From an uncultured Bacteroidia bacterium (lineage in GTDB: Bacteria; Bacteroidota; Bacteroidia; Bacteroidales; Prolixibacteraceae), in contig CAIVCR010000073.1 of NCBI GenBank assembly GCA_903904515.1, forward strand, positions 1 through 64,000: a stretch of 64,000 nucleotides of DNA. The letters are read 5' to 3'. The notes beneath the pieces were generated by a model. It worked only from the letters and a program-made list of their open reading frames with translations. It had not been told where the DNA came from and did no database searches. Made by a program: the position numbers and the translations under genes. Below, piece after piece: positions 21,598 to 37,833 of the stretch. The stretch's first letter is position 1. Each line of letters opens with the position of its first letter.

Positions 21598-24126
21598 TTA
21601 TCTGGAAGCCTTTATCTTCAAAATCGTAAATGAACCTGCCCCAAACTCATAATCGAAATCCTTCGAAAATTTAGTGTAGCGGGAAGACTTTGGTGAAATC
21701 TTCAGTGGCTCTTCGTATGAATTTTCCTCCTTCAAATTAGCAGTAGATAAGGTGACAACTTCCCCCTCAGGTGTCACGATGCCACAGTTGCTTATTTTGA
21801 TTGACGGATGCCAGGGTGTTTCGTCGGCATTTACTACTTTAATTATTACCTCTCCGTTTTTCTGGTCAAAGCCTGAAACAGCAAACTGATGCAACGGGCT
21901 CATCGGTTTATAGTTGATAAACTCTTTCCCATCAATCCATAGTGAAATATTATCGTTGGATCTGACAATCTTTAAATCGTACCATTTATTCGTTTCAACT
22001 GCAAACGGTAACTGTTCAGAGACAATTCCCGCAGTTGTTCCACCCTCGATTTTCTCCATCCCGGTCTGGGTGTTTCCCCAACCTCCGATATTAAAGAGAA
22101 ACCCCTTCTGGTTTTTATCTGACATTCCCAGATAGATCAGGAATCCTTCGTTCCCATTGGTTTTCCGCGCCTTTAATTCAAAGGTATAATTCCCTGAATA
22201 GGTTTTATTCAGCATCAAACCGGTCATGTTTCCGTTTGAATTTTGAGCAACCAGATTATCCGAGAAAGCCCATTCTCCACTTTGTTTTGCCCAATCTGCA
22301 ACAACAGGAATTTCCACCCGATTATCCTGAGTAGTCACCTTAAAATCTTTATATTCTGTTTGGGTTTGCCAGGTTCCCACCCCAAAAGATCCATCCGCAA
22401 GCAGCGGAAACGATTTGGCAGCACGAGGGGTGATACTGGTCGCCAGATTATAGGCAGGCCTATTTTCGGAAACCATTTTTTGGACATAATACGATGTCCT
22501 GCCGACAACCTGCATATTATCGATCCAGATCAGGTTTACAGGCCATGTCCGGTCATTCCGGTTTTCAAAAAGAGGAGCATATGACGCCATCGTTACCAGG
22601 TCACTGTTGCGTTCCATCCCGGTAATAAAAGCTGCCTCGCTTAATGCAGCCAGCATATTTCCTCCACCAACACCCTGATTACATGCGTATTCACCCACAT
22701 AGACAGTGCGTTCTCCGCGGGGTTGCTTATCAAAAATGGTTGCATTCTTAAAGAAGAAGTCAGGGGCAACATACCAATGGGGATCGATCATATCGGTCTT
22801 GGCGACTTTCTTTACCTCATCCCCTAGTCCGTGATTTGAAATCAGTGTCAGCTGGGGATACTTGGATTTAATCGCCTTGTAGAACAGGTCAAAGCGGGCA
22901 TTGTAAACAGGACCGTTGTTCTCATTTCCAATCTCAATAAACTGCAGCGGGAATGGAGCCGGATGCCCTGACGCTGCACGTTTGGCCCCCCAGGTGGTGG
23001 ATGCGTCTCCAAGCGCATATTCGATGGCATCGAGTACATCATTGATATAAAACTGAACATCACCTTCCTTGCAAGCATCACCAACCCGGGCCTGGCATCC
23101 AAGGCCGACGTTACATACGAACATGGCCTTTGCCCCGATATCTTCGCAAAACTGGAGATGTTCAAAGTATCCGTAACCATAGGTACTCCGGTATCCCCAG
23201 GTGCTGAATTCCCCGCTTCGTTTCATCGGGTCACCAAGGGTCTTCTTCCACTCAAAACGGTTGCCCAGAGTGATTCCCTCAACGACACATCCACCGGGCC
23301 AGCGGACAAATCCGGGATGAAGTCCGACTAACATTTCGGCCACATCAGGTCTCATCCCATTTGCGCGGTTTTTGAATGTCTTTTCCGGGAAAAGAGAGAC
23401 ATACTCGACATAAACAGTTCCGCTACCCTTGAAGCAAAGGGCCAGTTTCGCTTTGGCATCAGTCTGATCAGGACCGATTGCTATTTTATATTCCTGCCAC
23501 CCTGCACCACTTTTAAGCGTCACCGGAAGTTTCGCAAGTGAATTGCCTGAAGAGGAGATCAGACAAGCTTTAAGTGTCCCTTTATAATTTGTAGTACGCA
23601 GATAAAATCGCAAATTATACCGTTGACCCTGCTTTACCCCCACACCCCAGAATCCACTATTTAATAGCATTACATGGTCTGCCGATTGAGGTATGGTAAT
23701 CTGCAGGGAATTAGGAGCCGCAACATCCAGCGGATTATTTTTGGTAAGTTTCATCTGAGCCTTTGCTTTACCGTCAGACACGAGTGACCATCCGGGGATT
23801 GGATCTTCACTCCATCGAAAACCTTCTTTACTCAACGCTCCTGTCAGATGATTTTTCATCGGAGCAGGATAAAGTTTATCCCCCTTTACGGAATATCCCG
23901 CCGGATACTCTTTTTCTTCAAAACCACGGTTCTGCAGGAGCTCACCGTACAAGCCACCCTCACCTGCATGATTAATCTCTTCAAAGAAAACACCGTACAT
24001 ACTTGGAGAGACATCAGCCCCTTTTTGAGAGAAGTCTATACTAATCTGCCCTTCAGTCTGAGGTTTGGGAGTACACGAGAGGAGAAAAAACAGTGAAAAT
24101 AGTGCAGGAATCAGTATTTTTTTCAT
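21598..24126 (-). CDS. alpha-L-arabinofuranosidase, GH51-type lipoprotein with C-terminal lectin-like domain
   Basis: 842 residues with a lipoprotein signal (LFFLLSC, Cys 18). The start of the mature region, MYGVFFEEINHAGEGGLYGELLQNRGFE at 43-70, is diagnostic of GH51. A carbohydrate-binding insert lies at about 100-250. The acid/base is Glu 402 (IGNENNG) and the nucleophile Glu 479 (VGEYACN). A DUF1080/LamG-like beta domain follows at about 600-760. It releases terminal arabinofuranose from arabinan, arabinoxylan or arabinogalactan at the cell surface or periplasm. It lies upstream of the ABC genes on the same strand but 173 bp apart. Confidence 0.92.
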   Translation of the reverse strand: MKKILIPALFSLFFLLSCTPKPQTEGQISIDFSQKGADVSPSMYGVFFEEINHAGEGGLYGELLQNRGFEEKEYPAGYSVKGDKLYPAPMKNHLTGALSKEGFRWSEDPIPGWSLVSDGKAKAQMKLTKNNPLDVAAPNSLQITIPQSADHVMLLNSGFWGVGVKQGQRYNLRFYLRTTNYKGTLKACLISSSGNSLAKLPVTLKSGAGWQEYKIAIGPDQTDAKAKLALCFKGSGTVYVEYVSLFPEKTFKNRANGMRPDVAEMLVGLHPGFVRWPGGCVVEGITLGNRFEWKKTLGDPMKRSGEFSTWGYRSTYGYGYFEHLQFCEDIGAKAMFVCNVGLGCQARVGDACKEGDVQFYINDVLDAIEYALGDASTTWGAKRAASGHPAPFPLQFIEIGNENNGPVYNARFDLFYKAIKSKYPQLTLISNHGLGDEVKKVAKTDMIDPHWYVAPDFFFKNATIFDKQPRGERTVYVGEYACNQGVGGGNMLAALSEAAFITGMERNSDLVTMASYAPLFENRNDRTWPVNLIWIDNMQVVGRTSYYVQKMVSENRPAYNLATSITPRAAKSFPLLADGSFGVGTWQTQTEYKDFKVTTQDNRVEIPVVADWAKQSGEWAFSDNLVAQNSNGNMTGLMLNKTYSGNYTFELKARKTNGNEGFLIYLGMSDKNQKGFLFNIGGWGNTQTGMEKIEGGTTAGIVSEQLPFAVETNKWYDLKIVRSNDNISLWIDGKEFINYKPMSPLHQFAVSGFDQKNGEVIIKVVNADETPWHPSIKISNCGIVTPEGEVVTLSTANLKEENSYEEPLKISPKSSRYTKFSKDFDYEFGAGSFTILKIKASR

Positions 24127-24166
24127 GCTGGCTTAGATTTGATATAAAGTTCGTAATGGGCTTATA

Positions 24167-24174
24167 CAAATTTA
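24167..24174 (-). promoter_or_regulatory. candidate -7 box for the GH51 gene
   Basis: TAAATTTG on the minus strand fits TAnnTTTG and lies 40 bp before the ATG. A -33 TTG is not visible. Confidence 0.35.
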
Positions 24175-24230
24175 CACTTCTAAAGTAACTAATTTAAGAA
24201 CACAATAATATCTCATGTTCACTAAATGAT

Positions 24231-24350
24231 CTGTCGCCGCTATGCGGCTGGAATTTTTGTAATACCGGAATTTTACCAAACTATCGGTGCGATGCACCTA
24301 AACCTCTGAAGAGCCGTGTAACGGCGTAAGTTTGGGAAAAAGGATAATCA
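24231..24350 (-). repeat. multi-hairpin dispersed repeat, copy 2
   Basis: The core at 24271-24350, read on the minus strand, matches copy 1 (1726-1803): the same GCCG-TTACA-CGGC and GGTGC-ATC-GCACC mini-hairpins inside the CCAAACTT.../AAGTTTGG-type outer pair. The GCCGC-TAT-GCGGC hairpin sits at about 24236-24248. It lies just past the nuoN stop and may also end nuo transcription. Confidence 0.7.
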
Positions 24351-24366
24351 GATAAGAATTAGATCC

Positions 24367-25740
24367 TTAGATCGGAACCGTCCATACAAATAAACCCAGC
24401 AGAAGAACTGCAACACCACAGACGATGATTAAAGCGGCGTTGAGTTTGGTAATTTCAATTGGATTTGGATCGTTACTCTCCGAAAATGCTTCCCGAAGGA
24501 CATAAAAATAGTAATAGATTCCAATAATTGCCATTATGATGGCAAAAATGGAGATAGCCAGGTATCCGCGACTGATCGATAAAATAAAAACGCGGTATTT
24601 TGCAAGGAAGCCGGCTGTTGGGGGAAGACCTGCGAGCGACATGAGCAGGATCGTCATAAAAACAGCCATCCACGGTTTCTGTTTGTATAATCCGCGAAAG
24701 ATAGAAAGTTCCTCCAGGCCATTTGAAGCTCGTTTCATATGAATAAAGATGATGAAAAGGGGAACAGTAGCCAGCGAATACACAAAGGTATAATAGAGGA
24801 GAACCGAGGCAGATGAATCGTGCTGTGAAAGCATTGCAAGCATCATAAAGCCGGTATGAACGATTGCGGAATAAGCCAGCAAACGTTTAAAATTTGTCTG
24901 ATTTAATGCGGCAAGGTTTCCTACCAGCAACGAGAGCATGGTCATCACCCATAGGGTTTTCTCCAGAGGTCCGGGCAATGGCAATAATCCCATACCCAGC
25001 AAACGGTAAAAAGCGGCAAAGCCGGCTGTTTTAACAACGGTTGCCATAAAAGCAGTAACCAGCGTGGGGGAACCTTCGTAAACATCGGGACTCCAGAAGT
25101 GAAAAGGGGCTACTGCTACTTTAAAGGCTACTCCAATGAGAATAAAAAGCAAACCTACCATAAGCATAGGTGGAAGGTGGCCATTGAACTGCGCAATATA
25201 GTTCTTGATTTCAGGGAGATAAAAGGTCGCAGAGGCTCCGTAAACCAAGGCAATTCCAAAGAGAAAAAATGCTGTCGCAAACGAGCCAAGCAAAAAATAT
25301 TTAAACGAAGCTTCATTTGAGCGGAATGAGCTTTTCTTCCCACCGGCAAGGATATATAAGGGAATTGATAAGATCTCTATCCCAAGAAAAAGCATGATCA
25401 GGTTTGAAAAGGAGGTCATCAGAAAAGCGCCTGTAAGCGCGAAAATCATCAGTGCATATTGCTCTGCAACATGATGTTCCATCCGTTTGTAATAATTGAT
25501 ACCAAACAGGAAAATCAGGATGGTAATGATTAGCATGGATACATTGAAGGCGATCGAAAAGTTATCGATGATCATCATATCATGAAAATACTTCGATCCA
25601 AGTCCCCAATCTTTAATCGAAAGAACCATACTGATCACCAGACCGGTGATAGCAACGGGCGCTAAAATTGTTTTGTTCTCTGCAAAACCCAGATACAGAA
25701 CGATGATTCCAAAAACTGTTAATAAAATTATTGCGCTCAT
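24367..25740 (-). CDS. nuoN: NADH-quinone oxidoreductase subunit N
   Basis: 457 residues, a polytopic antiporter-like (Mrp/NuoLMN) subunit with about 14 hydrophobic segments. The conserved membrane lysine and proline motifs of the proton channel are visible (FKVAVAPFHFWSPDVYEGSP, FKRLLAYSAIVHTG). It is the last gene of the 14-gene complex I operon, 37 bp after nuoM, and is followed by a structured repeat. Confidence 0.95.
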   Translation of the reverse strand: MSAIILLTVFGIIVLYLGFAENKTILAPVAITGLVISMVLSIKDWGLGSKYFHDMMIIDNFSIAFNVSMLIITILIFLFGINYYKRMEHHVAEQYALMIFALTGAFLMTSFSNLIMLFLGIEILSIPLYILAGGKKSSFRSNEASFKYFLLGSFATAFFLFGIALVYGASATFYLPEIKNYIAQFNGHLPPMLMVGLLFILIGVAFKVAVAPFHFWSPDVYEGSPTLVTAFMATVVKTAGFAAFYRLLGMGLLPLPGPLEKTLWVMTMLSLLVGNLAALNQTNFKRLLAYSAIVHTGFMMLAMLSQHDSSASVLLYYTFVYSLATVPLFIIFIHMKRASNGLEELSIFRGLYKQKPWMAVFMTILLMSLAGLPPTAGFLAKYRVFILSISRGYLAISIFAIIMAIIGIYYYFYVLREAFSESNDPNPIEITKLNAALIIVCGVAVLLLGLFVWTVPI

Positions 25741-25777
25741 TGGCTAACTAAATTCAAGTTGTTTCTAATAGATTTGA

Positions 25778-27256
25778 TTAACGCAAAAATAAGGTAACAA
25801 CCTCATTCGCAGGTATCAAAAGTTTCTGCATGGAATTTACCGATTCTTCAAGTAAATTCAGGATTGGCTGAGGATATACCCCCAGTATAAATATGATGGC
25901 AATCAATGGAATAAGAATCAGGTAATCAATAACCTGAACATCTTTTATCTTTGACAACGCCGGATTTTCATCACCAAGCATGATCCGTTGATAGGCATAA
26001 AGCATATATATTGCCCCAAGAATCATCGTTAAACCGCCAAAAACGGCAATCCAGATCGATTGTTTTGCAAGTCCGGTTATGATGAGAAACTCCCCGACAA
26101 AACCGGAGGTAAGCGGCAGGGCTATTGAACCGAGCACAACCATCAGCAAAAGGATGGCCATGTTGGGTGCAGCCAGTTTGAGCCCCCCCATCTGAGGTAA
26201 TTCAAGCGTACCGGTTCTTTCCTGGATAAGATGCACCAGGTAAAAGAGTGCTACAATAGTCACACCATGACTGATAACCTGGAAGAGCAGTCCCTGCAGG
26301 GAATAATAATTAAGGGCAAACATTGCTGCAGCCATCAGTGAGATATGGGCCATCGATGAAAATGCGATCAACCGTTTAATATTTGTCTGGCGGAAGGCGA
26401 TTACTGAGGCGTAAACAACACCTATCAGGCACATGGTGATGACAGTATTTTGCCAAAAAAGTACCCCTTGAGGAACAATTGGAAACAAAAAACGTAATGC
26501 CCCATAAATACCCATTTTGGTCATAACTCCGGCCAATATCATTACCCCCTGTTTTGACGCCATGGTATACGTGGAAGGTTGCCAGGTATGAAAAGGGAAA
26601 ATGGGCAACTTAATTGCAAATGCGATAAAGAGAATCCAGAACAGCCAGGTCTGTGTATCGGCAGGAAGATGAAGCTGATTAAAAGCCGAAAAATCAGTAG
26701 TGTGCAAACTTCCGGTCCAGGTATACAAATAGATTATTCCAAACAGGAGAAACAGACTCCCCGTTAAGGTGTAAATAAAGAATTTTAACGTGACAGCTCT
26801 GCGGTTTTCGCCACCCCAGAGTAGCAGAATAAAATAGACCGGAATCAGGGTAAGCTCCCAGAAAATGTAAAATAAAAAAGCATTCTGGGCGAGGAAAACT
26901 CCGATCAGCGACGACTGGGTAAACAGAATCAGGAAGTTCAGAACGGGGATCTTGATATGGGCCCGGGTAAAGCCCGAAAGGATGATGAAAGGGAAAAGCA
27001 GGTTCGTTAACAGTAACATGATCAAACTAATCCCGTCATAACCTAACGTGAATTGTGTTCCCATAAAATGGGTGGAGTCGATGGTATATGTTGTGGATGG
27101 AACAGTACTGATCAACCCCAGGGTAAGAATTAAATTTACTAAAGCCGATCCCAGGGCAATAAACCGTACGGTTGCCGGATTCCTCAGTAAGAGAAGGAAT
27201 AACCCAGTGATAACAGGTAATAAAAGAATAATTATCAATATCATAGGATCAGACAA
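25778..27256 (-). CDS. nuoM: NADH-quinone oxidoreductase subunit M
   Basis: 492 residues, a proton-pumping antiporter-like membrane subunit. Family motifs include the channel glutamate segment FYIFWELTLIPVYFI, the lysine-bearing FAIKLPIFPFHTWQPSTY and NIKRLIAFSSMAHISL. It overlaps the end of nuoL by 8 bp, indicating coupled translation. Confidence 0.96.
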   Translation of the reverse strand: MSDPMILIIILLLPVITGLFLLLLRNPATVRFIALGSALVNLILTLGLISTVPSTTYTIDSTHFMGTQFTLGYDGISLIMLLLTNLLFPFIILSGFTRAHIKIPVLNFLILFTQSSLIGVFLAQNAFLFYIFWELTLIPVYFILLLWGGENRRAVTLKFFIYTLTGSLFLLFGIIYLYTWTGSLHTTDFSAFNQLHLPADTQTWLFWILFIAFAIKLPIFPFHTWQPSTYTMASKQGVMILAGVMTKMGIYGALRFLFPIVPQGVLFWQNTVITMCLIGVVYASVIAFRQTNIKRLIAFSSMAHISLMAAAMFALNYYSLQGLLFQVISHGVTIVALFYLVHLIQERTGTLELPQMGGLKLAAPNMAILLLMVVLGSIALPLTSGFVGEFLIITGLAKQSIWIAVFGGLTMILGAIYMLYAYQRIMLGDENPALSKIKDVQVIDYLILIPLIAIIFILGVYPQPILNLLEESVNSMQKLLIPANEVVTLFLR

Positions 27257-29150
27257 TTAAGATAAAAATAATGAATAAAAGAATTCCTGCCACCATAGCA
27301 AAGAAGTAAAAACTCATGATGCCCTGCTGTAGTTTGCGTACCTGGTCTCCAAGCTTCGAAGTGAGTATTCCAATTTCGTCAATAATTGGATCAAGCACTT
27401 TGATTTCAATCTGTTTGAAGAAAAAATCGGAAAGAAAGCCGAATGGTTTCTCAAAAAGGGTCGCATAGATTTGGTCAATATAGAACTTATTGGAAATCGC
27501 TTTGGCAAACACCGATTGTGACTCTTTATCACCGGCGGGTATTACCGATTTTTTCACATAGGTGCGGTAAGCCATAAAAATAATGAATCCAAGAAGGGCG
27601 AGTGAGGCTGCAATTAAACCTATTTCCGTGGAAGCACCCATCTCTTCAGTCACTTTAGAGGTGATGGCTTTGTGCAAAAAGTCGCTAAATCCTGATTCAC
27701 CTCCAAAAAGAGATGGAATATTCAGGAATCCGCCAAATACGGCCAAAATACTCAGGATGATTAGCGGAATAGTCATTACACGCGGCGATTCATGCGGATG
27801 TGCCGTATCAAGCCGCTGGTTTCCAAAGAAAACCAGATATAATAATCGGAACATATAAAAGCAGGTGATCAAGGCACCACCCAGTGCTAAAATATAGAGT
27901 ATCGGACTGCTTTCAAAGGCATGATTAAGTATCAGATCTTTACTGAAGAAGCCGGAGAATGGCGGGATTCCGCTGATCGCCAGGGTACCTGCTAAAAAAG
28001 TCAGGTAGGTAATTGGCATTTTCTTTCGAAGACCACCCATCTTCCGGATATCCTGCTCTCCCCCCATGGCGTGGATAATGCTTCCCGCACCGAGGAAAAG
28101 TAATGCTTTGAAAAACGCATGGGTTGTAAGATGAAATACAGCACTTGAATATGCTCCCAACCCAAGAGCCAAAAACATATATCCCAATTGAGAGACCGTA
28201 GAATAGGCAAGGACTTTTTTAATATCATTCTGTCTTAATCCGATTATCGCGGCAAAAATTGCGGTAGCCAGCCCAAGACCGATCATTATATTGAGTGTTA
28301 TGGGGGCCAGATTATAGAGTATGCTCGAACGGGCAATCATATATATTCCAGCCGTCACCATCGTTGCAGCATGGATCAAAGCCGAGACGGGAGTAGGACC
28401 GGCCATCGCATCGGGTAACCAGGTGTAAAGGGGGATCTGGGCACTCTTCCCAACGGCTCCGACAAGGAGTAAAATTGTAATCAGGGTGATTAACGGGGCG
28501 CCAGCTTGTAAAGTAGCTGCCTGTGTAAAGACCTCCGTAAAGCTCACCGACTTAAAGGTGAAGAAGAGAAGGATAATTCCAAGGATAAAACCCAAATCAC
28601 CGATCCTGTTCATCACAAAGGCTTTACGCGCCGCATAATTAAATTCAGGATTTTTAAACCAGAAGCCAATCAGCAGGTATGAACAGAACCCAACGCCTTC
28701 CCAACCAATAAACAGAATCAGGTAGTTTGCCCCCATCACTAAGAGCAACATGCTGAAAGTAAACAGATTCATCTGGGCAAAAAATGAATTTACCCGTTCA
28801 TCATCGTGCATGTAGCCGATTGAATAGATATGAATCAGCGCCCCGACACCAGTAACAATCAACATCATGGTGATCGATAAATGGTCAATCAGAAACGCAA
28901 ATGGAATCTTCATATCACCGGCTGAAATCCAGTTAAAAAGGGTAATTGTCGCTGATTCCTGTCCTGAAGAACGTAGGGTGAAAAATAAAAACAGCGAAGT
29001 AAGAAACGAGAGTGCCACCATCGTACTGGCAAGGATACCAGCCTGATTATGCTTCAACCGGTTTTTGCCCAGTCCGGTTATCAGGAAACCCAACAAGGGA
29101 AAGGCAGGAACGAGCCAGGCAAGTGTAATATAAGGAATTGATGCTACCAT
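27249..29150 (-). CDS. nuoL: NADH-quinone oxidoreductase subunit L
   Basis: 633 residues, the distal proton-pumping subunit with the long C-terminal lateral helix. Motifs: LFIGWEGVGFCSYLLIGFW, AQIPLYTWLPDAMAGPTPVSALIHAATMV and DIKKVLAYSTVSQLG. The residues after about 490 form the amphipathic lateral helix and final anchor. It overlaps nuoK by 7 bp. Confidence 0.97.
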   Translation of the reverse strand: MVASIPYITLAWLVPAFPLLGFLITGLGKNRLKHNQAGILASTMVALSFLTSLFLFFTLRSSGQESATITLFNWISAGDMKIPFAFLIDHLSITMMLIVTGVGALIHIYSIGYMHDDERVNSFFAQMNLFTFSMLLLVMGANYLILFIGWEGVGFCSYLLIGFWFKNPEFNYAARKAFVMNRIGDLGFILGIILLFFTFKSVSFTEVFTQAATLQAGAPLITLITILLLVGAVGKSAQIPLYTWLPDAMAGPTPVSALIHAATMVTAGIYMIARSSILYNLAPITLNIMIGLGLATAIFAAIIGLRQNDIKKVLAYSTVSQLGYMFLALGLGAYSSAVFHLTTHAFFKALLFLGAGSIIHAMGGEQDIRKMGGLRKKMPITYLTFLAGTLAISGIPPFSGFFSKDLILNHAFESSPILYILALGGALITCFYMFRLLYLVFFGNQRLDTAHPHESPRVMTIPLIILSILAVFGGFLNIPSLFGGESGFSDFLHKAITSKVTEEMGASTEIGLIAASLALLGFIIFMAYRTYVKKSVIPAGDKESQSVFAKAISNKFYIDQIYATLFEKPFGFLSDFFFKQIEIKVLDPIIDEIGILTSKLGDQVRKLQQGIMSFYFFAMVAGILLFIIFILIV

Positions 29151-29473
29151 TTCAACCGGTTCAAAAGGTTAATATCTACAGAATCCACATTACGCTTCAT
29201 CATCACTACAATTGATAAGCCGATGGCAATTTCAGCAGCAGCTACAATCATGATAAAAAATACAAAGACCTGTCCGGCAGGATCGGAGTGATAAGCCGAA
29301 AAGGCGGTAAGCAGCAGGTTGACCGAATTAAACATTAATTCGAGGCACATCAGGATGGCTATTGTGTTTCTCCGGAATAAAACGCCCATCATGCCGATGC
29401 TGAAAAGGGCAACGCTCAACCCGATGTAATTCTCCAACGGGATAAGCTGTATGGCGGATGAGATCTCTTTCAT
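29144..29473 (-). CDS. nuoK: NADH-quinone oxidoreductase subunit K
   Basis: 109 residues with three membrane helices. The conserved glutamates lie in MCLELMFNSVNL and AAAEIAIGLSIVV. Its start codon directly abuts the 7-bp repeat array that bounds the inserted S23-type element, so any translational coupling to nuoJ is broken here. Confidence 0.96.
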   Translation of the reverse strand: MKEISSAIQLIPLENYIGLSVALFSIGMMGVLFRRNTIAILMCLELMFNSVNLLLTAFSAYHSDPAGQVFVFFIMIVAAAEIAIGLSIVVMMKRNVDSVDINLLNRLKW

Positions 29474-29908
29474 AGTTATAAGTTATAAGTTATGAATTAT
29501 AAGTGTTGTTTTTGGAAGTGATTATTGCGCTTCGTAACATCTTTAATAATTCAATTGCGTCGTTATTAATATTTTCAAATTCTTGTTCATTTAAATAATT
29601 TGCTTCTTTTAGCAACTCGATCCAATACATTGATTCGTCACACTCTTTCTGCGAAATACTCATTTTATGTATAAAATCCTTTTTGCTCTCCGCATTTTGC
29701 GCTTCACGAACCATTGCGCCAATTGAGGTTCCACTTCTCAAAAGTTGCTTACTAATTATATACTCCTTTTTTTCATCTACCAAAAACTGGTACAGTTTAA
29801 TTATGCGAACAGCAAACTTGAAGCTTTTATCTTTCAATATACTCTTCCGTTCACTCATAACTCATAACTCAAAACTAATAACTCATAATTTATAACTCCT
29901 AACTCCTA
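29474..29908 (-). mobile_element. IVS-like element: S23-type ORF between inverted heptad repeat arrays
   Basis: The left boundary (29474-29508) is five 7-bp units on AGTTATA; the right (29853-29908) is eight units on ACTCATA. The two are inverted and partly complementary, so an RNA could fold into a long imperfect stem with the ORF in its loop, the architecture of intervening sequences in 23S rRNA. Here the element sits exactly between nuoJ and nuoK. The ORF's start codon (29856-29858) and stop codon (29490-29492), and the nuoJ stop (29906-29908), lie inside the arrays. No transposase is present; mobility is inferred from architecture only. Confidence 0.6.
29490..29858 (-). CDS. four-helix-bundle protein (23S rRNA intervening-sequence/S23 family)
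   Basis: 122 residues, the usual length for this family. The recognisable core runs from DKSFKFAVRIIKLY through LLRSGTSIGAMVREAQNAESKKDFIHKM and ISQKECDESMYWIELL to IELLKMLRSAI. The family was first seen as ORFs inside excised 23S rRNA spacers; its function is unsettled, with nucleic-acid binding suspected. Here it lies on the same strand as nuo between nuoJ and nuoK. The last five residues are encoded by the left repeat array, which suggests the ORF and arrays moved or evolved as one unit. Confidence 0.88.
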   Translation of the reverse strand: MSERKSILKDKSFKFAVRIIKLYQFLVDEKKEYIISKQLLRSGTSIGAMVREAQNAESKKDFIHKMSISQKECDESMYWIELLKEANYLNEQEFENINNDAIELLKMLRSAIITSKNNTYNS

Positions 29909-30397
29909 AACGTCTTTCTTCCCAAACATAAGTGCCCCTACCATGGCAGAGATAAATAAGATGGATGATATTTCAAAAGGGAGCAAAAACTCGTTGAACA
30001 AAACTTTCCCGATTCCCGAAACCAGTCCGAAATCACTGGCAAAAGGATATTTCGCATGGATCTCGAATGTCTGGCGTGTTGCGGCCAACAGTACGAGGAA
30101 AAATATACCCCCGGTAATTACCGCAGAGACACGCGTAACTGTTGATTTACGCAGGATGATGGCTTTATTCAGATTCAGGAGCATAATCACAAAAAGGAAT
30201 AATACCATGATCGCACCGGTATACACAATAACATGAACTACAGCCAGGAATTGCGCATTCAGGAGAATATAGTGACCTGCCATCGCCAGAAAGCACACAA
30301 TCAGGTAAATAACATTGTTAATCGGATTCTTTGAGAATACAACCATCAATGCACAGATGATCATTATAGCAGAGAGGAAGTAAAATAGAAAGACCAT
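29906..30397 (-). CDS. nuoJ: NADH-quinone oxidoreductase subunit J
   Basis: 163 residues with five hydrophobic segments. The motif VVHVIVYTGAIMVLFLFVIMLLN is the pi-bulge helix region typical of NuoJ. It is followed downstream not by nuoK but by the inserted S23-type element, whose repeat provides its TAG stop. Confidence 0.95.
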   Translation of the reverse strand: MVFLFYFLSAIMIICALMVVFSKNPINNVIYLIVCFLAMAGHYILLNAQFLAVVHVIVYTGAIMVLFLFVIMLLNLNKAIILRKSTVTRVSAVITGGIFFLVLLAATRQTFEIHAKYPFASDFGLVSGIGKVLFNEFLLPFEISSILFISAMVGALMFGKKDV

Positions 30398-30422
30398 TTT
30401 ATTGTTGTTTTAAAAGTCAAAT

Positions 30423-30998
30423 TTATTTGTTGTGCGCATACCGTTTAACCAGTTTGAATTGATGCACAGCTTCTGTTTGCCGGGCTGAAATGTCAATCCT
30501 CAAATTCAGATCCAGTGGCTCAACCAGAATATCTTTTCCATAAACAAATGGTTTGCGTTCATATTGCGATGCCACGATACGGTCGGTGAGAAATATCGCC
30601 TCTTTGGGACAGGCATCTTCACAGTCACCACAAAAAATGCAGCGCAGCATATTAATTTCGTATACCGCTGCATATTTCTCTTCGCGGTAAAGATTTTCTT
30701 CTCCGGGTTTACGTTCAGCAGCCCGCATCGTGATTGCCTCGGCAGGACAGGCTACGGCGCACAATCCGCAGGCTGTGCATCGCTCACGCCCCTGGTCATC
30801 ACGTTTTAACACGTGTTGTCCGCGATAGACCTTACTGAATTCCCGCTTTTGTTCCGGGTAATTAATGGTCGCCTTCTTTCCGAAGAAATGACGTATAGTG
30901 ATAGACATCCCTTTGAAAATGGCAGGAAGATAGATCCACTCCATGAAGGTCATCTTCTTATCCGAAACCATTTTCGATCTGTTTGTTAATGTTTGCAT
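30423..30998 (-). CDS. nuoI: NADH-quinone oxidoreductase subunit I (2 x [4Fe-4S])
   Basis: 191 residues. Two ferredoxin motifs carry clusters N6a and N6b: Cys 74, 77, 80, 84 and Cys 120, 123, 126, 130 (with the usual cross-assignment of the fourth ligands). It relays electrons from the peripheral arm towards NuoB. The start could be any of three early Met codons; the first is used. Confidence 0.96.
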   Translation of the reverse strand: MQTLTNRSKMVSDKKMTFMEWIYLPAIFKGMSITIRHFFGKKATINYPEQKREFSKVYRGQHVLKRDDQGRERCTACGLCAVACPAEAITMRAAERKPGEENLYREEKYAAVYEINMLRCIFCGDCEDACPKEAIFLTDRIVASQYERKPFVYGKDILVEPLDLNLRIDISARQTEAVHQFKLVKRYAHNK

Positions 30999-31008
30999 GG
31001 CTTTCGGA

Positions 31009-32040
31009 TTACTTTAATTCGGTAAAGAAATAATAAATTCCTGTTGCAACGATGTTAAACATCGCCAATGGTATTAACCCTTTCCATCCCATGTTCATAA
31101 GCTGATCGTACCGAAACCGGGGCAGCGTCCAGCGAATCCACATAAAAAGGAAGATCAGTCCAAAAATCTTAATAAAGAAAAAGGCTGTTCCAAGTAAGGT
31201 TACGATATTGGGAGAGAGGCCGATCGAACCAATAAAAGGCATATTATAACCGCCAAAATAGAGCGTTGCAATAACGGCCGATGAGATAAACATATTGATG
31301 TATTCGGCAAAAAGATAAAAACCAAGCTTCATCGAGCTGTATTCGGTGTGGTATCCACCGATCAGTTCTGTTTCACATTCAGGGAGGTCAAAAGGTGCCC
31401 GGTTTGTTTCTGCGAATGCACAGGTTAAGAAGATCAGAAATCCCAGCGGCTGGTAGAAGATATTCCAGTGCAATCCATGTTGTTGAGAAACAATGTCATG
31501 CAGACTTAATGAGCCGGTGGTGAGAACAAGGGCAATAATCGACATTCCCATTGCCAATTCATAGCTGATCATTTGCGATGCTGCCCGGATAGCTCCCAGA
31601 AGTGCATATTTATTGTTCGAAGCCCACCCTCCGATCATAATGCCATAGACACCGATAGAGACCATGGCAAAAACATAGAGAATGCCAATGTTCAGATCAG
31701 CAACCTGGAGTGAAAATTCCCGACCTCCAATAGTCAGAGTTCCTCCCCACGGAATAACGACTCCTGTAAGTAATGCAGTGGTCATGGCAAGTGAAGGGCC
31801 AATAATAAAGAGGCTTCTGTTTGCAGTAAGGGGAATGATCTCCTCTTTCATAAACATCTTCAGTCCATCGGCCAACGGCTGTAAAAGCCCGAACGGACCG
31901 GCACGGTTCGGACCCCGGCGGTCCTGCATAAACGCAGCTACTTTTCGCTCACCATACGTCGAATACATGGCCACAACCAATGTGACCGCGAAAATGATGA
32001 TCAAAAAAACAGTTTTAAAAATTAGTTCTGTCAAATCCAT
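31009..32040 (-). CDS. nuoH: NADH-quinone oxidoreductase subunit H
   Basis: 343 residues, about eight membrane helices. The quinone-site segments are clear: ERKVAAFMQDRRGPNRAGPFG near the N-terminus and FAETNRAPFDLPECETELIGGYHTEY in the middle. It forms the quinone chamber with NuoB and NuoD. The gene starts 58 bp after nuoG and ends 10 bp before nuoI. Confidence 0.97.
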   Translation of the reverse strand: MDLTELIFKTVFLIIIFAVTLVVAMYSTYGERKVAAFMQDRRGPNRAGPFGLLQPLADGLKMFMKEEIIPLTANRSLFIIGPSLAMTTALLTGVVIPWGGTLTIGGREFSLQVADLNIGILYVFAMVSIGVYGIMIGGWASNNKYALLGAIRAASQMISYELAMGMSIIALVLTTGSLSLHDIVSQQHGLHWNIFYQPLGFLIFLTCAFAETNRAPFDLPECETELIGGYHTEYSSMKLGFYLFAEYINMFISSAVIATLYFGGYNMPFIGSIGLSPNIVTLLGTAFFFIKIFGLIFLFMWIRWTLPRFRYDQLMNMGWKGLIPLAMFNIVATGIYYFFTELK

Positions 32041-32098
32041 ATCAAATGGTTACGTTGCACCTGAATACCCTCAGGCTAAGATATTGAATATATGCATT

Positions 32099-33049
32099 TT
32101 ATTTTGAAACCCGAACCGACTTACCGGGACTTGTTTCATAATGATTCTGGGAAATTACCGAATGGCGTTCAATTGTTCTGGGCCCTTCGACAACCCAATC
32201 TTTTAACTCTTTCCTATCAAACCGGCAATCGTTGCAGATAAACTCTTCAACTTCACCGTATTTATCTTTTCTGCCGGTTACGCGAAGGATCTCCTCCCCT
32301 TTCATCCACAGTGCCACTTTACCGCTGCATTTTGAGCACTCGCGGTGCGCATCGAAAGGTTTAGTGAACCATACGCGGCTCTTAAACCGGAAGGTATTGT
32401 CGGTTAATGCGCCCACCGGGCAGACATCGATCATATTTCCGGAGAAGTCATTATCGACAGCATTAAGTATATGGGTGCTGATTTCTGAATGATCGCCACG
32501 CCCCAATACGCCATGCACCCTTTTATCGGTGATCTGATCGCCAACCATTACACACCGGTAACAGAGAATGCAGCGATTCATATTGAGTTTGATCTTATCG
32601 CCAATGTCGATTGGCTTAAATGTTCTCCGCTCCTCAACGGTACGTGTTTCCTGAATACCGTGGACATACGAGAGGTCCTGAAGGTGGCATTCCCCTGCCT
32701 GATCACAGACGGGACAGTCGAGCGGATGATTCACCAGCAGGAATTCGGTGATTGCCCGACGGCTCTCCATCGCTTCAGGAGATGTGGTATTTTGTACGAC
32801 CATTCCATCCTGAACCATAGTGCGGCAGGATGCAACCAGCTTAGGCATCGGACGGGGATCTTTGGCAGAGCCCTGAGAAACTTTCACGAGGCAGGTTCGG
32901 CACTTGCCTCCGCTCCCTTCGAGCTTTGAATAGTAGCACATAGCCGGAGGGACCACATGGCCACCAATCTTACGGGCAGCATTCATGATGGTTGTTCCGG
33001 CTTCTACCTCCACCTCAATATTATCGATGGTTACCTTTAAAAGGGGCAT
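32099..33049 (-). CDS. nuoG: NADH-quinone oxidoreductase subunit G, short form
   Basis: 316 residues instead of the 700-900 of enterobacterial NuoG. Clusters kept: N1b (Cys 38, 50, 53, 75), N3 (His 108, Cys 112, 115, 121) and N4 (Cys 160, 163, 166, 210). The molybdopterin-oxidoreductase half is absent, leaving only an N-terminal stub with two CxxC pairs (238/241 and 272/275). Short NuoG is usual in Bacteroidota, so this is not a truncation in this strain. It overlaps nuoF by 13 bp. Confidence 0.93.
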   Translation of the reverse strand: MPLLKVTIDNIEVEVEAGTTIMNAARKIGGHVVPPAMCYYSKLEGSGGKCRTCLVKVSQGSAKDPRPMPKLVASCRTMVQDGMVVQNTTSPEAMESRRAITEFLLVNHPLDCPVCDQAGECHLQDLSYVHGIQETRTVEERRTFKPIDIGDKIKLNMNRCILCYRCVMVGDQITDKRVHGVLGRGDHSEISTHILNAVDNDFSGNMIDVCPVGALTDNTFRFKSRVWFTKPFDAHRECSKCSGKVALWMKGEEILRVTGRKDKYGEVEEFICNDCRFDRKELKDWVVEGPRTIERHSVISQNHYETSPGKSVRVSK

Positions 33050-34338
33050 TTTTGTAGTTTTACGTGTTCTTCAAATTCTTCACGGAAATGACGGATTGCA
33101 CTGGCCACCGGCCATGCAGCAGCATCGCCAAGCGGGCAGATCGTATTCCCTTCCACATGTTTTGCAATATCAACAAGCAGGTCGATATCTTTCATCGTCC
33201 CCTGCCCGCCTTCAATTCGCATTAATATCTTTTCCATCCAGCTGGTCCCTTCGCGGCATGGACTGCACTGACCGCATGACTCATGACGATAGAACCTGGC
33301 AAAGGTAAGGAGGTTTTTTACAATGCAGGCCGTGTGATCCATAACGATAAAGCCTCCTGAACCCAGCATGGTACCGGTTTGAAATCCCCCTTCGGACAAT
33401 GATTCATAACTCATGAGGCGGGGTTCGCCGGCCGCAGTTTTCAGGATCAGATTTGCCGGAAGAATCGGCACAGATGAACCACCTGCAACCACTGCTTTCA
33501 GCTTGTTCCCGTTTCGGATTCCACCGCAATATTCGTCGCTGTAAATAAACTCTTCCACCGGAAGACCCAGTTCAATCTCATAGATGCCTGGCTTGTTGAT
33601 ATGACCACAGGCGGAAATAAGTTTTGTCCCTTTGCTGTTTCCAATTCCAATGGCCGAATAAGCTTCTCCGCCGTTATTTACGATCCAGGGAAGTGTGGCG
33701 ATTGTTTCCACATTATTCACAACTGTCGGAGAACCGTACAGACCCACGATAGCGGGAAACGGTGGTTTGATTCGCGGATTACCGCGCTTTCCTTCAAGCG
33801 ATTCGAGCAGAGCAGTCTCTTCACCGCAAATGTAGGCACCCGCTCCGGGATGACAATAAAGATCAAGCGAATAACCCGATCCCAGGATATTTTCCCCAAG
33901 GAAACCATTTTTATACGCCTCTGCAATTGCCTTTTCAATAATTCGCAATACATAAAAAAGCTCTCCGCGTATATATATGTATGCAGTATTGGCTCCCAGG
34001 GCATATGATCCCAGGATCATCCCTTCGATAAGCTGATGTGGATTGAGCTGACCAATATGCCGGTCTTTGAATGTTCCCGGTTCACTCTCATCGTAATTAC
34101 AAACCAGGTATTTTGCTTTTTGACTCTGTTTATCAATGAAACTCCATTTCATCCCGGTAGGGAAACCTGCACCACCACGACCTTTTAATCCCGATTTTTT
34201 CACCTCATCGGTGACCTCATCTGGCGAAAGGGTTTTCAAGGCCTTTTCAACCGCTGTATATCCACCCAGTTTCCTGTAAACCTGAATTTCAGCAAGACCA
34301 GGGACGTCAATATTTTTTAGTAATATCTGTGTTGCCAT
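33037..34338 (-). CDS. nuoF: NADH-quinone oxidoreductase subunit F (NADH/FMN-binding)
   Basis: 433 residues. The nucleotide/FMN site GRGGAGFPTGMKW is at 53-65 and YICGEETALLESLEG at about 169-183; cluster N3 ligands are Cys 355, 358, 361 and 401. It oxidises NADH in the cytoplasmic arm. It follows nuoE by 2 bp. Confidence 0.97.
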   Translation of the reverse strand: MATQILLKNIDVPGLAEIQVYRKLGGYTAVEKALKTLSPDEVTDEVKKSGLKGRGGAGFPTGMKWSFIDKQSQKAKYLVCNYDESEPGTFKDRHIGQLNPHQLIEGMILGSYALGANTAYIYIRGELFYVLRIIEKAIAEAYKNGFLGENILGSGYSLDLYCHPGAGAYICGEETALLESLEGKRGNPRIKPPFPAIVGLYGSPTVVNNVETIATLPWIVNNGGEAYSAIGIGNSKGTKLISACGHINKPGIYEIELGLPVEEFIYSDEYCGGIRNGNKLKAVVAGGSSVPILPANLILKTAAGEPRLMSYESLSEGGFQTGTMLGSGGFIVMDHTACIVKNLLTFARFYRHESCGQCSPCREGTSWMEKILMRIEGGQGTMKDIDLLVDIAKHVEGNTICPLGDAAAWPVASAIRHFREEFEEHVKLQKCPF

Positions 34339-34340
34339 CG

Positions 34341-34874
34341 TTACAGGTAAGGGTTTGTATGCGAAATTTTATTTTCGCGTTTCCATTGTTCAAGCAGATT
34401 ATCTGCCTTCTCGGGTGTGAGGTTTTCGTGATATTCGGTTCCGACCTGAATTACCGGTGCATTCCCGCAGGCAGCGAGACATTCGACCGTTTTAAGGGTG
34501 AACTTGCCATCAGCCGTTGTTTCGCCAGGTTTAATCCCTAGTCGCGTTTCAAAATGGGCAATGATTTTTTCTGCCCCGTTTAACCAGCAGGGTCCCGTAT
34601 GACAAACTTCAATCACACAGTTTCCAACAGGCTTAAGATTAAACATGCTGTAAAATGAGGCAACCTCATAGACTTCAATCGGTAAAATATCGAGTAAAGT
34701 GGCGACATAATCCATCATCTCAGGACTAAGCCAGCCGCTATTTTCTGATTGGGCAATATGCAATACGGGTAACAGGGCAGATTTTTGCCTCCCCTGCGGA
34801 TACCGTTTAATAATCTGATTTACCAGATCAAGTGTTTCACGATTAAATTCAGGTATGTTATTCTTTTCCTGCAT
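34341..34874 (-). CDS. nuoE: NADH-quinone oxidoreductase subunit E ([2Fe-2S])
   Basis: 177 residues, thioredoxin-like fold. Cluster N1a ligands are Cys 91, Cys 96, Cys 132 and Cys 136 (CHTGPC and CLAAC). It pairs with NuoF in the NADH dehydrogenase module. Confidence 0.96.
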   Translation of the reverse strand: MQEKNNIPEFNRETLDLVNQIIKRYPQGRQKSALLPVLHIAQSENSGWLSPEMMDYVATLLDILPIEVYEVASFYSMFNLKPVGNCVIEVCHTGPCWLNGAEKIIAHFETRLGIKPGETTADGKFTLKTVECLAACGNAPVIQVGTEYHENLTPEKADNLLEQWKRENKISHTNPYL

Positions 34875-34903
34875 TATTTTCTGTTTTCATTTTTTTATTG
34901 TGG

Positions 34904-34923
34904 AGACGTTGCATGCAACGTCT
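34904..34923. repeat. 20-bp perfect palindrome between nuoE and nuoD
   Basis: AGACGTTGCA followed by its exact reverse complement, extendable to about 15 bp per arm with G-U pairs. It resembles a palindrome dispersed in many bacterial genomes (GAGACGTTGCATGCAACGTC type). It lies in the 60-bp nuoD-nuoE spacer and could act as an mRNA hairpin. Confidence 0.7.
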
Positions 34924-34934
34924 TTACAAATTGA

Positions 34935-36170
34935 TTATGCATCCAATTCACCTGCAATTACATTCATCGAACTCATGGTAAGAATTGCATCGGATAACAT
35001 ATTTCCCTGGACCATTTCGGGATATGCCTGATAATAAATAAAACAAGGACGGCGGAAATGGAGTCTCGAGGCGGTTCGTCCGCCATCACTTACCAGATAA
35101 TACCCTAATTCGCCGTTGGCAGCCTCTATGGCGTGGTAAACCTCTCCGACAGGAATATCGGTTTCGCCCATCACGATTTTAAAGTGCCAGATCAGCGCCT
35201 CCATATTGTTGTATACTTTTTCTTTAGGTGGGAGTACAAATCGCGGATCACTCGCGTAATAGGTCTCCTTGTCCTCCATTATGTCAAGCTTATCCAATGC
35301 TTGTTGAATAATGCTCATGCTTTGCTTCATCTCTTCCTGACGGACCATAAAGCGGTCGTAAGTATCGCCGCTTTGTCCAACCGGAACAATAAAGTCAAAC
35401 TCTTCATACGAACAATAGGGGTTCATCACCCTAACGTCGTAATCCAGCCCGCAGGCGCGCAGGTTAGGACCTGTAAATCCATAGGCCAGGGCGCGGTCAA
35501 GCGGGAAAGGTCCCACATTTACGGTACGGTCCATAAAGATCCTGTTCCTCGCGAGCAGGGTCTCAAATTCTTTTAATTTTGCTGGAAATGTTTTTAGAAA
35601 ATAGCGGATTTTCTCCCATGCCTTAGCGCTGAAATTGCGTTCAAAACCGCCGATCCGTCCCATGTTGGTTGTGAGTCGTGATCCGCAGATCTCTTCATAA
35701 ATTTCATAAATGAATTCCCGGTCCTGGAAGATGTAGGTGAATCCGGTGAGAGCTCCGCTGTCAACACCAATCACACTGTTACAAATAATATGATCGGCAA
35801 TACGCGCAAGCTCCATTATCACGATACGAAGGTAATCAACACGCTTGGGTGTTTCAATTCCCAGTAATTTCTCTACAGTCATGTGCCATCCCATATTATT
35901 CAGGGGAGAGGAACAATAATTTAACCGGTCGGTGAGCGGGGTAACCTGGTAAAAAGGGCGCCGTTCAGCTATTTTTTCAAATGCGCGATGTATGTAACCA
36001 ATTGTTTGCTCAGTACTTACAATAAATTCACCATCCATAAGCATAACATTTTGAAAAACGCCATGCGTAGCCGGATGGGTAGGGCCAACGTTGAGCGTAT
36101 TATACTCCTTTGGCTCTTCCGTTTTGACTATGTCTTTATCCCAATAATCGGTATTTACTCCTTTTGCCAT
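34935..36170 (-). CDS. nuoD: NADH-quinone oxidoreductase subunit D (49-kDa homologue)
   Basis: 411 residues. The N-terminal LNVGPTHPATHG loop with the quinone-site histidine, and the segments RVDYLRIVIMELARIADH and GYYLVSDGGRTASRLHFRRPCF, mark this subunit. It is a stand-alone NuoD, not a NuoCD fusion. The 138-bp spacer before it, after nuoC, carries heptad repeats. Confidence 0.97.
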   Translation of the reverse strand: MAKGVNTDYWDKDIVKTEEPKEYNTLNVGPTHPATHGVFQNVMLMDGEFIVSTEQTIGYIHRAFEKIAERRPFYQVTPLTDRLNYCSSPLNNMGWHMTVEKLLGIETPKRVDYLRIVIMELARIADHIICNSVIGVDSGALTGFTYIFQDREFIYEIYEEICGSRLTTNMGRIGGFERNFSAKAWEKIRYFLKTFPAKLKEFETLLARNRIFMDRTVNVGPFPLDRALAYGFTGPNLRACGLDYDVRVMNPYCSYEEFDFIVPVGQSGDTYDRFMVRQEEMKQSMSIIQQALDKLDIMEDKETYYASDPRFVLPPKEKVYNNMEALIWHFKIVMGETDIPVGEVYHAIEAANGELGYYLVSDGGRTASRLHFRRPCFIYYQAYPEMVQGNMLSDAILTMSSMNVIAGELDA

Positions 36171-36308
36171 TTATGGTTTGAATTTCTTCTATAAACATTT
36201 GACCTCGCTGAGGTCAGAAAAATTAGTATTCGTAATGACCATGTCATTCAATTACATGACCTTTCCAAACTCATAACTCATCACTTATATTTCATAACTA
36301 ATTTCAGA
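36171..36308. repeat. nuoC-nuoD spacer with hairpin and heptad array
   Basis: From 36268 to 36302 the plus strand has five 7-bp units (AACTCAT, AACTCAT, CACTTAT, ATTTCAT, AACTAAT), the same family as the right arm of the nuoJ-nuoK element. Nearer nuoD are TGACCT-CGCTG-AGGTCA and GTCAT...ATGAC hairpins. No ORF is present. Confidence 0.6.
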
Positions 36309-36818
36309 TCACCGCCCAAACATGCTGTTATCCTTATCCTCGCGTGTCTGATCTTCAAGAGGAAACTCCTTCCGCAACGGGAAATCGGTCATTTCGTCGA
36401 CATTTAAAATTCGTTTAAGGTTCGGATGCCCTTCGAACAGTATACCAAAAAAATCGTATGTTTCGCGCTCCTGCCAATTAGCAGAAGGCCATATCGTAGT
36501 TATTGTGGGAATCCGCGGATCCGAAATAGCAGTCGTTGTTTTGATTCTGATTCTATGATTATTGACAAAACTATGAAGATGATACACAACGCCAAGTAAC
36601 TCCTTTTCGGGATAATGCATCCCACACAGGGTAGTCAGAAAGTTATACTGCAACTCTTTCTCATCACGAAGATAAAGCATCACCTGCTGAATAACCTCCT
36701 TGTTAATGGTGATGCAAAGCATATCACCCATAATTTCATGAAGATCAATGGATCCGTTAAAATTATCGCTCAATTTTGTAACAACTAACTGGTCTCTTTC
36801 TGGTTTGATCTGGAACAC
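36309..36818 (-). CDS. nuoC: NADH-quinone oxidoreductase subunit C (30-kDa homologue)
   Basis: 169 residues. The family motif WPSANWQERETYDFFGILFEGHPNLKRIL near the C-terminus, then FPLRKEFPLED, is diagnostic. It stands alone rather than fused to NuoD. Confidence 0.95.
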   Translation of the reverse strand: MFQIKPERDQLVVTKLSDNFNGSIDLHEIMGDMLCITINKEVIQQVMLYLRDEKELQYNFLTTLCGMHYPEKELLGVVYHLHSFVNNHRIRIKTTTAISDPRIPTITTIWPSANWQERETYDFFGILFEGHPNLKRILNVDEMTDFPLRKEFPLEDQTREDKDNSMFGR

Positions 36819-36884
36819 AAAAATATTTTTTAAAGTACTTAAATTATTTAAATCCGCAGTTTAACGACTGGAAGAATAAGACTT

Positions 36885-37454
36885 TTATTCGATATTATAT
36901 TCATCCATCAAGTCCTGATACTCCTTGGAGTTCCTTCTTCTTAACGATTCGTTTCCAACCAGTTCCTGTATTTTAATGATCCCGTCAATAATCTGTTCCG
37001 GACGAGGAGGGCACCCTGGCACATAGACATCAACCGGGATTATCCGGTCAATTCCCTGCAAGACACTGTACGTATCAAAAATACCTCCGCTTGAAGCGCA
37101 GGCACCAACTGCAATTACCCATTTAGGTTCTGCCATTTGAATATAGACCTCACGCAGTACAGGACCCATTTTTTTTGCCACAGTTCCCATCACCATCAGC
37201 AGGTCGCTCTGGCGGGGTGAAAAGCTTAATCTCTCAGATCCAAAGCGGGCAAGATCATAATGAGATCCCATCGTGGCCATGAATTCAATTCCACAGCAGG
37301 ATGTGGCAAAGGGTAATGGCCATAGTGAATTTTTCCGGGCCAGACCAACGGCTTTTTCCATCGAGGTTGCAAAGAACCCCTGTCCGGAGATCCCCTCAGG
37401 AGTCTCGGCCAATGTGGGAGCCATGATTATTTTATCTTTATCGAACATGAACAA
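36885..37454 (-). CDS. nuoB: NADH-quinone oxidoreductase subunit B (cluster N2)
   Basis: 189 residues. The N2 ligands are Cys 53 and Cys 54 (TSCCGIEF), Cys 119 (GACASSGG) and Cys 148 (PGCPPRPE). It hands electrons to quinone at the NuoB/D/H interface. Confidence 0.97.
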   Translation of the reverse strand: MFMFDKDKIIMAPTLAETPEGISGQGFFATSMEKAVGLARKNSLWPLPFATSCCGIEFMATMGSHYDLARFGSERLSFSPRQSDLLMVMGTVAKKMGPVLREVYIQMAEPKWVIAVGACASSGGIFDTYSVLQGIDRIIPVDVYVPGCPPRPEQIIDGIIKIQELVGNESLRRRNSKEYQDLMDEYNIE

Positions 37455-37470
37455 AAAATTTCAGCGAGCA

Positions 37471-37833
37471 TTAACGCTTATCCCATTTTAAAGCGCCCTT
37501 GAGAATAATATAAATAAAACCGATAAGAACAAGGATCATAAATAAAAACATATCCAGAAAGCCATCTTTTCCTAAGGATTTGAAATTCACCGCCCAGGGA
37601 TACATAAAGATAACTTCGACATCAAAAAGCACAAAGAGAATTGCGATCAGAAAGTATTTAACTGAAAACGGACTTCTGGCATTACCCAATCCTTCAATTC
37701 CACATTCAAAATTCTCAAGTTTGGCACGTGAATACCTCTTGGGCCCGAGAAAATGGGTAGCTACCATGGTGGTAATCACAAAACCTAGTACAATCAATGT
37801 CTGAATTAATACGGGGATATAATCTTGTGGCAT
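37471..37833 (-). CDS. nuoA: NADH-quinone oxidoreductase subunit A
   Basis: 120 residues, three membrane helices. The loop KLENFECGIEGLGNARSPFSVKYFLIAILFVLFDVEVIFMYPWA is diagnostic. It is the first gene of the operon; no clear -7/-33 promoter was identified in the 154 bp upstream. Confidence 0.96.
   Translation of the reverse strand: MPQDYIPVLIQTLIVLGFVITTMVATHFLGPKRYSRAKLENFECGIEGLGNARSPFSVKYFLIAILFVLFDVEVIFMYPWAVNFKSLGKDGFLDMFLFMILVLIGFIYIILKGALKWDKR

Follow-up and report, generated by a model that had tools for sequence, protein, structure and literature searches.

A four-helix-bundle ORF between inverted heptad arrays in the nuoJ-nuoK spacer of a Prolixibacteraceae genome, one case of a widespread class of IVP loci with matched inverted arms

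We find that the nuoJ-nuoK spacer of an uncultured Bacteroidia bacterium (family Prolixibacteraceae) holds an ORF of the rRNA intervening sequence protein (IVP) family between two inverted arrays of short tandem repeats, and that this locus is one case of a widespread class. The DNA analyzed (the window) is a stretch of 64,000 nucleotides from contig C73 of an 83%-complete assembly (G000; 3.57 Mb, 130 contigs). The reading that we favor, and put just on the probable side of even, is that array, IVP ORF, and inverted array form a cassette, a heritable unit that would move between intercistronic spacers, be kept almost only in the sense orientation downstream of a host gene, be expressed by read-through, and encode an IVP that recognizes its own repeat. 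Comparison of sequences shows the following parts of this reading: the architecture; arms that match within a locus and are specific to it; a 5' arm rich in G; an ORF in sense orientation; the presence, decay, or absence of the cassette at nuoJ-nuoK; purifying selection on the ORF; a repeat unit and period that go with the protein lineage even where the sites are unrelated; and a spread over several phyla.

The initial annotation had placed an S23-type four-helix-bundle ORF inside the complex I operon, and profile and structure searches bear this out (Table 1). The ORF is a member of the IVP/S23 family, with matches to PF05635 (E 5.5e-28, 97.7 bits against a cut-off of 33.8 in a Pfam profile search) and TIGR02436 (E 8e-31, 106.5 bits against a cut-off of 24) that exceed both curated cut-offs. 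PF05635 is its only Pfam domain, and neither a nuclease domain nor a tyrosine transposase was found in it. The AF2 model has four helices (mean pLDDT 94), and its predicted structure is of the four-helix-bundle type of 2rld (Foldseek E 4e-10; query TM 0.85-0.89), and 2gsc (query TM 0.69-0.78), entries of five chains each.

Table 1. Coordinates of the features at the nuoJ-nuoK locus and of a solo array in the window
Feature	Position	Strand	Basis or remark
IVP/S23 four-helix-bundle ORF, 122 aa, ATG start	29490-29858	-	PF05635, TIGR02436
nuoJ (upstream host gene)	29906-30397	-	PF00499, 2.1e-36
nuoK (downstream host gene)	29144-29473	-	PF00420, 2.5e-28
G-rich heptad array forming the 5' arm (sense strand, -), GAGTTAT/AGTTATA type, about 8 copies	29853-29909	-	TRF
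Heptad array with C but no G forming the 3' arm (sense strand, -), AACTTAT type, about 4 copies	29474-29504	-	TRF
Solo array of the window cassette's unit, no IVP ORF, G-rich on the sense strand	36268-36299	-	same nuo run

The flanking inverted 7-bp arrays likewise stood up to examination: TRF reports AGTTATA x4.4 in the 3' arm and ACTCATA x8.1 in the 5' arm, and the two are mutually inverted over 35 nt at 83%. As had also been claimed, three codons fall within the arrays, the IVP start (29856-29858) and the nuoJ stop (29906-29908) in the 5' arm and the IVP stop (29490-29492) in the 3' arm, which adjoins the nuoK ATG (29471-29473); this is a trait of the window copy, and elsewhere in the genus tens of bp often separate the end of the 5' arm from the profile match downstream of it. 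The pattern AACTCATAACTCAT (at most 3 mismatches) matches the window 21 times, compared to 6.9 expected, a count reached in 0 of 100 shuffles; the two arrays account for 10 of the 21.

By eye, all six IVP ORFs of the window genome are bordered by inverted short tandem arrays, with six different units. The genus has 67 IVP matches in 16 of 18 genomes, and we called arms matched at a similarity of at least 17, the 95th percentile of swapped flanks being 16. Arms reached this threshold in 46 of the 66 genus loci with both flanks present, and the mean similarity of a locus's own arms was 21.6, compared to 11.3 for swapped arms (maximum of 1000 permutations, 13.1). In a phylum sample, PF05635 occurred in 116 of 148 genomes (up to 16 matches listed), with matched arms in 19 of the 30 loci returned and in 11 of 20 extra loci picked from the list, one per genome, while close relatives in named genomes had matched arms at 54 of 63 loci. 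Own and swapped arms in the other sets averaged 19.0 and 13.8 (61 loci), 17.9 and 10.8 (30 loci), and 18.6 and 10.6 (20 loci), where swapped arms are also high in the set of 63 relatives (95th percentile 26) because relatives share units. Counting against the cassette reading are the loci below the threshold (20/66 in the genus, 9/63, 11/30, and 9/20); at L072 the repeats are direct instead of inverted, arms are weak at L070, L076, and L078, and IVP-type proteins of 190 aa and a DGR-like locus (L124) have none. At this last locus (G015:C614), the IVP-family match is followed by an Asn-codon-rich repeat and looks like a DGR avd with a template repeat. We also noted a TGTCTAGTCCTGAAATAGGTTTAC-like stretch, perhaps an insertion-sequence end, beside several cassettes of a period-8 subfamily (flanks of L001, L006, L075, and L118) and once without an ORF (L142, around 8960).

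Since orthologous sites, as well as two loci that repeat genus copies (L155 and L213, left out of the grouping), inflate the raw counts of orientation and polarity, we put together those of 177 loci that have flanking gene families in common, which gave 65 groups of at most 50 loci, and counted one locus from each; arms were present in 40 of these 65 independent site groups. In 124 loci of the four sets, the arm that is G-rich on the sense strand preceded the IVP start, compared to 3 with the opposite polarity and 3 ties. This bias was seen in the genus (41:2 and 3 ties; 46 of 66 loci scored), the named relatives (54:0; 54 of 63), the phylum sample (18:1; 19 of 30), and the extra loci (11:0; 11 of 20), and it persisted at one locus per site group (37:0 with 3 ties among the 40 groups with arms), although a later scan found one IVP array pair of reverse polarity (G093:295071). 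Where both neighbors pointed the same way, as at the window cassette, the IVP ORF was almost always sense to them: the counts of sense to antisense were 45:0, 23:1, and 53:1 in three sets, excluding the 20 extra phylum loci, which have no neighbor data, and 35 to 1 per site group.

Both unit and period go with the protein. Arm-unit similarity rose with protein identity (Mantel r 0.47, 0/500) across 5706 pairs sharing no flanking gene, a correlation that can arise by simple co-inheritance and shared base composition. Two clearly periodic flanks were present in 94 of 174 loci, and the period was equal on both sides in 85 of these (51 expected). We found no signal of period conservation inside protein clusters (single linkage, 45%), and it was after this cluster-based form had failed that we chose a test on nearest relatives, in which the nearest relative (at least 35% identity) at an independent site had an equal period (7 or 8) in 51 of 57 cases compared to 33.9 expected (0/2000; 59 sites).

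The suggestion that the element is inserted between nuoJ and nuoK is supported by the junction in other genomes of the genus. We compared the 13 of 18 genus genomes, the window's included, in which NuoJ is at least 82% identical; two others lack a NuoJ match (G002 and G010), and three have only a diverged NuoJ of at most 52% identity (G012, G015, and G017), with no cassette found at nuoJ-nuoK in G012 and G017. The cassette is intact in three of the 13 (G000, G005, and G007), internally deleted or decayed in two (G011 and G013), and absent from eight, so that we regard it as an insertion. Of the cassette-free junctions, five have a short spacer (G001, G003, G004, G006, and G016); the other three hold a different palindrome, of GTAGAGACG type (G008, G009, and G014; loci L038, L039, and L049), and two of these three genomes carry the NuoJ closest to that of the window (97-98%). 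By look, the palindromes resemble the CGTC/GTAG repeats described in the part of PMC3733652 consulted. In another genus of the family (G024, L053), a long GATATAA array lies right behind nuoJ, with no IVP in the stretch examined.

The three intact nuoJ-nuoK IVPs are 74-78% identical, and a tree did not show them to form one clade. Among them, dN is 0.13-0.16 and dS is saturated or near-saturated (YN00 gives 0.15/1.39 for G005-G007), a combination of low dN with high dS that indicates purifying selection on the ORF. IVPs of 71% identity occur in Chitinophagaceae with no flanking gene in common, compared to 74-78% at the same site within the genus, which is consistent with, and does not prove, horizontal movement.

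Arrays also occur away from IVPs. AACTCAT arrays are most frequent in G000, and a solo array in the nuo run (Table 1) lies 9 bp past the stop of ORF 36309-36818 (nuoC by eye). Elsewhere in the window, a 7-bp array of AAAGTGC type (55075-55112) lies right behind a + strand gene with no IVP ORF, and a GACCTCCCCCAACCC-type repeat (52441-52503) is also found between inverted AACTCAT arrays on contig C29 (L013, around 1400). Scanning 464 kb of the window genome, we counted 66 arrays with a period of 6-10. Strong inverted pairs, at a distance of up to 900 bp, numbered four, and two of these surround the two IVPs present. With the first 1.2 Mb of G093 added (1.664 Mb in all), a sample that is not neutral because hits had already pointed to the contigs of the window genome and G093 was chosen for its many IVPs, there were six inverted pairs, three enclosing an IVP, and four IVP ORFs. 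In the G093 part, which was taken by coordinate, one of the two array pairs encloses an IVP, and one of the two IVP ORFs is bracketed at the threshold; the other is frameshifted, with flanks that look inverted by eye but score below the threshold. Of the pairs without an IVP, one surrounds a gene that by eye resembles a GNAT acetyltransferase, another surrounds a small ORF, and the third has no gene inside; the best tblastn matches to IVP in two array pairs without an IVP (E 0.010 and 0.019) were not counted as remnants.

Solo arrays were common, and those within 150 bp behind stop codons leaned G-rich on the sense strand (22 compared to 12). By hand count at most 20 bp behind a stop, the ratio was 14 to 3, and two of these three are 3' arms that belong to the IVPs themselves; no G lean was found before start codons (10 compared to 8). 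Some genomes in which the listed IVPs have units other than AATTACG (G015, for example) nevertheless contain AATTACG arrays. Thus, arrays can exist with no resident cognate IVP, and control of solo arrays by a resident IVP is ruled out as a strict rule. A very long degenerate heptad array lies at a contig end of the window genome (L033, G000:C59, first 396 bases); such arrays may break assemblies.

The class extends beyond Bacteroidota. With a canonical IVP (L067) as tblastn query, we obtained matches in 31 plasmid records, at least 24 of them cyanobacterial by name. Ten of the 31 loci were examined: arms reached 17 in eight, the other two had short arms by eye, the upstream arm was G-rich by eye in all ten, and all nine with annotated neighbors were co-directional. 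Copies on an Azospirillum plasmid (score 26) and in Ignavibacteria (20 and 26) also had arms. The same query gave no match among 50,697 phage records; a table of phage elements in a paper on Flavobacterium columnare, seen as an extract, places a four helix bundle protein between genes for guanylate kinase and an adenylyltransferase (PMC5524665). The cyanobacterial plasmid cassettes are located among cas, cmr, and transfer genes, with an IVP between cas6 and cas4 on plasmids of Anabaena sp. 90 and Pseudanabaena galeata and between cas10/cmr2 and cmr3 on a Picosynechococcus plasmid (L269, L275, and L277 are the cassettes in CRISPR operons). No cassette was found in the four other cas6-cas4 loci examined, with gaps of 23, 36, 5, and 245 bp; the 245-bp gap, in Dolichospermum, holds another palindrome, and the Cas4 there shares 98.5% identity with the Anabaena sp. 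90 protein across 90% of its length.

The arrays, the rRNA intervening sequences (IVSs), and the IVP family are each already known; what is added here is the link between array and IVP, which we did not find in the open-licence literature, as far as its available text goes. In the portion of PMC4990558 consulted, the IVSs of 23S rRNA (Leptospira, Coxiella) carry an S23p ORF, are excised by RNase III, and encode a protein of no known function despite solved structures, that of Xanthomonas being a homopentameric toroid. They share with the cassette the protein family, a small ORF between complementary arms, a sporadic distribution, and horizontal acquisition. In contrast, they lie in rRNA helices 9, 25, or 45, whereas the cassette lies in a protein-operon spacer, and cassette arms are site-specific tandem arrays of 7-8 bp; moreover, a 23S IVS is excised by RNase III without ligation, whereas excision of the cassette is a prediction. 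Thus, the earlier description of an IVS-like element holds for the S23-type ORF and the complementary arms, but not for location: the site is the nuoJ-nuoK spacer rather than an rRNA helix, and the element falls outside the strict definition of a 23S IVS.

Heptamers are a common repeat class, as the sections of PMC4679880 and PMC4692102 at hand describe. The TAACTGA arrays of Beggiatoaceae are mostly intergenic (PMC4679880); the GGGNATC heptamers of Xanthomonas and Nostoc are intergenic, lie between aligned genes, include inverted pairs, and are G-rich on the sense strand within 50 bp of stops and upstream of ORFs on the antisense strand (PMC4692102). The cassette arrays resemble both in being 7-bp tandem arrays that are mostly intergenic. 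Set against the heptameric intergenic class of Rehm 2015, they are tandem 7-mers, intergenic, and G-rich on the sense strand after stops, but the unit of the window cassette lacks GGG and would thus form no quadruplex of the GGGNATC kind. We rejected a G-quadruplex as the general function of the arrays because neither this unit nor others, such as AATTACG, contain three consecutive G. As for a gene partner, the terms "four helix", "S23", and "23S" are absent from the main text of PMC4692102, and "four helix" and "23S" from that of PMC4679880.

Two further systems invite comparison. Avd of diversity-generating retroelements, part of a reverse-transcriptase particle (8ub7), is a four-helix bundle whose resemblance to PF05635 appears in the part of PMC10053308 seen; 4dwl matches the window IVP at TM 0.75, but at a Foldseek E of only 0.14, and by eye we found neither a reverse transcriptase nor template or variable repeats among the ORFs of 22000-38000, which read as nuo and unrelated genes. 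REPtrons (RAYT genes with GTAG palindromes), as the consulted part of PMC3733652 presents them, are similarly bracketed by short repeats that also occur alone, but the cassette has no tyrosine transposase, and its arrays are tandem heptads, not palindromes.

We considered the proposal of the initial annotation that the cassette might be an intervening sequence of mRNA: the arms would form double-stranded RNA once nuo is transcribed, cleavage by RNase III would release the IVP RNA, and nuoJ mRNA would be uncoupled from nuoK mRNA, which could set the ratio of upstream to downstream subunits. In structure prediction, the arms did pair: the sense-strand RNA gave a better fold than every one of 100 shuffles (z -2.94), and among the 31 bases that make up the 3' arm, 29 pair with the 5' arm. 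An RNase III gene in the genome, the sense orientation of the IVP, and the RNase III-cut, complementary borders of rRNA IVSs with S23p ORFs (PMC4990558, in part) also fit this explanation. However, the opposite strand folds almost as well (also better than 100 of 100 shuffles; z -2.60), and thus the folding is not strand-specific. Moreover, a stem under selection as RNA should accumulate G-U rather than A-C mismatches between its arms, and we found 189 G-U compared to 232 A-C in 117 loci (27 loci leaning to G-U, 50 to A-C). A-C was in nominal excess (P 0.04; P 0.007 in the set of 63 relatives), and with one locus per site group the two were level (95 G-U, 86 A-C). Thus, selection on an RNA stem is not seen, though the arms are matched; we rejected it as a candidate and consider the mRNA explanation improbable.

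To a mobile element acting at the DNA level we assign a similarly low probability. Its arrays would be terminal inverted repeats recognized by the IVP or by a host transposase or reverse transcriptase, and the sense bias would reflect selection after insertion; matched inverted ends, empty sites at nuoJ-nuoK, similar cassettes at unrelated sites, inverted array pairs without an IVP, and the Avd-like fold all speak for it. Yet the ORF has PF05635 alone and no nuclease domain, no target-site duplication has been demonstrated, and the ends vary in length and sequence between sites. The remaining explanation, that an ordinary gene simply sits in repeat-rich spacers where heptad arrays grow by slippage, draws on the frequency of solo arrays after stop codons and on the heptamers being a known common class (PMC4679880 and PMC4692102, in part). 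It leaves unexplained both the locus-specific matched inverted arms and the inheritance of the period, and in the 1.664-Mb sample three of four IVP ORFs are bracketed and only three other inverted pairs occur. This explanation is already disfavored, and we consider it very unlikely.

Because unit and period go with the protein, the fold is like the S23p toroid, and there is kinship with Avd, we propose, within the favored cassette reading, that the arrays are likely cognate sites of the IVP. Read-through transcription from the upstream host gene would express the IVP, and the toroidal, Avd-like protein would recognize its own repeat, either as RNA in its leader or as DNA ends; probably its binding site lies in its own leader, and the two arrays would be the ends of the element. 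Such recognition would autoregulate IVP translation and draw the two cassette ends close to each other, so that the cassette could be copied or lost. If the arms pair in RNA and RNase III cuts them, this may be a side effect that renders the insertion harmless.

More tentatively, and we think this rather unlikely as a whole, the orphan intergenic heptad arrays seen in Bacteroidota and Cyanobacteria, and perhaps those of Xanthomonas, could have their missing partner in IVP, with each lineage of the protein recognizing its own unit and spacing. Cassettes and solo arrays would then make up a RAYT/REP-like system with no transposase, possibly copied through RNA by the Avd-like protein and a reverse transcriptase in trans, and rRNA IVSs would be the special case that landed in rRNA.

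Joining the IVP family to the orphan heptad arrays gives each a testable partner, and if IVP binds its own repeat, the function of IVS proteins becomes a matter for a binding experiment. The cassette may also explain why a 23S rRNA IVP is named among CRISPR-linked proteins in a figure legend of PMC10910872 (the part consulted), since on three cyanobacterial plasmids it is an apparent passenger between cas or cmr genes, and it is a warning against guilt by association in operons. The cassette class may thus connect the rRNA intervening sequence protein with the short intergenic tandem repeats, both of them orphans of long standing.
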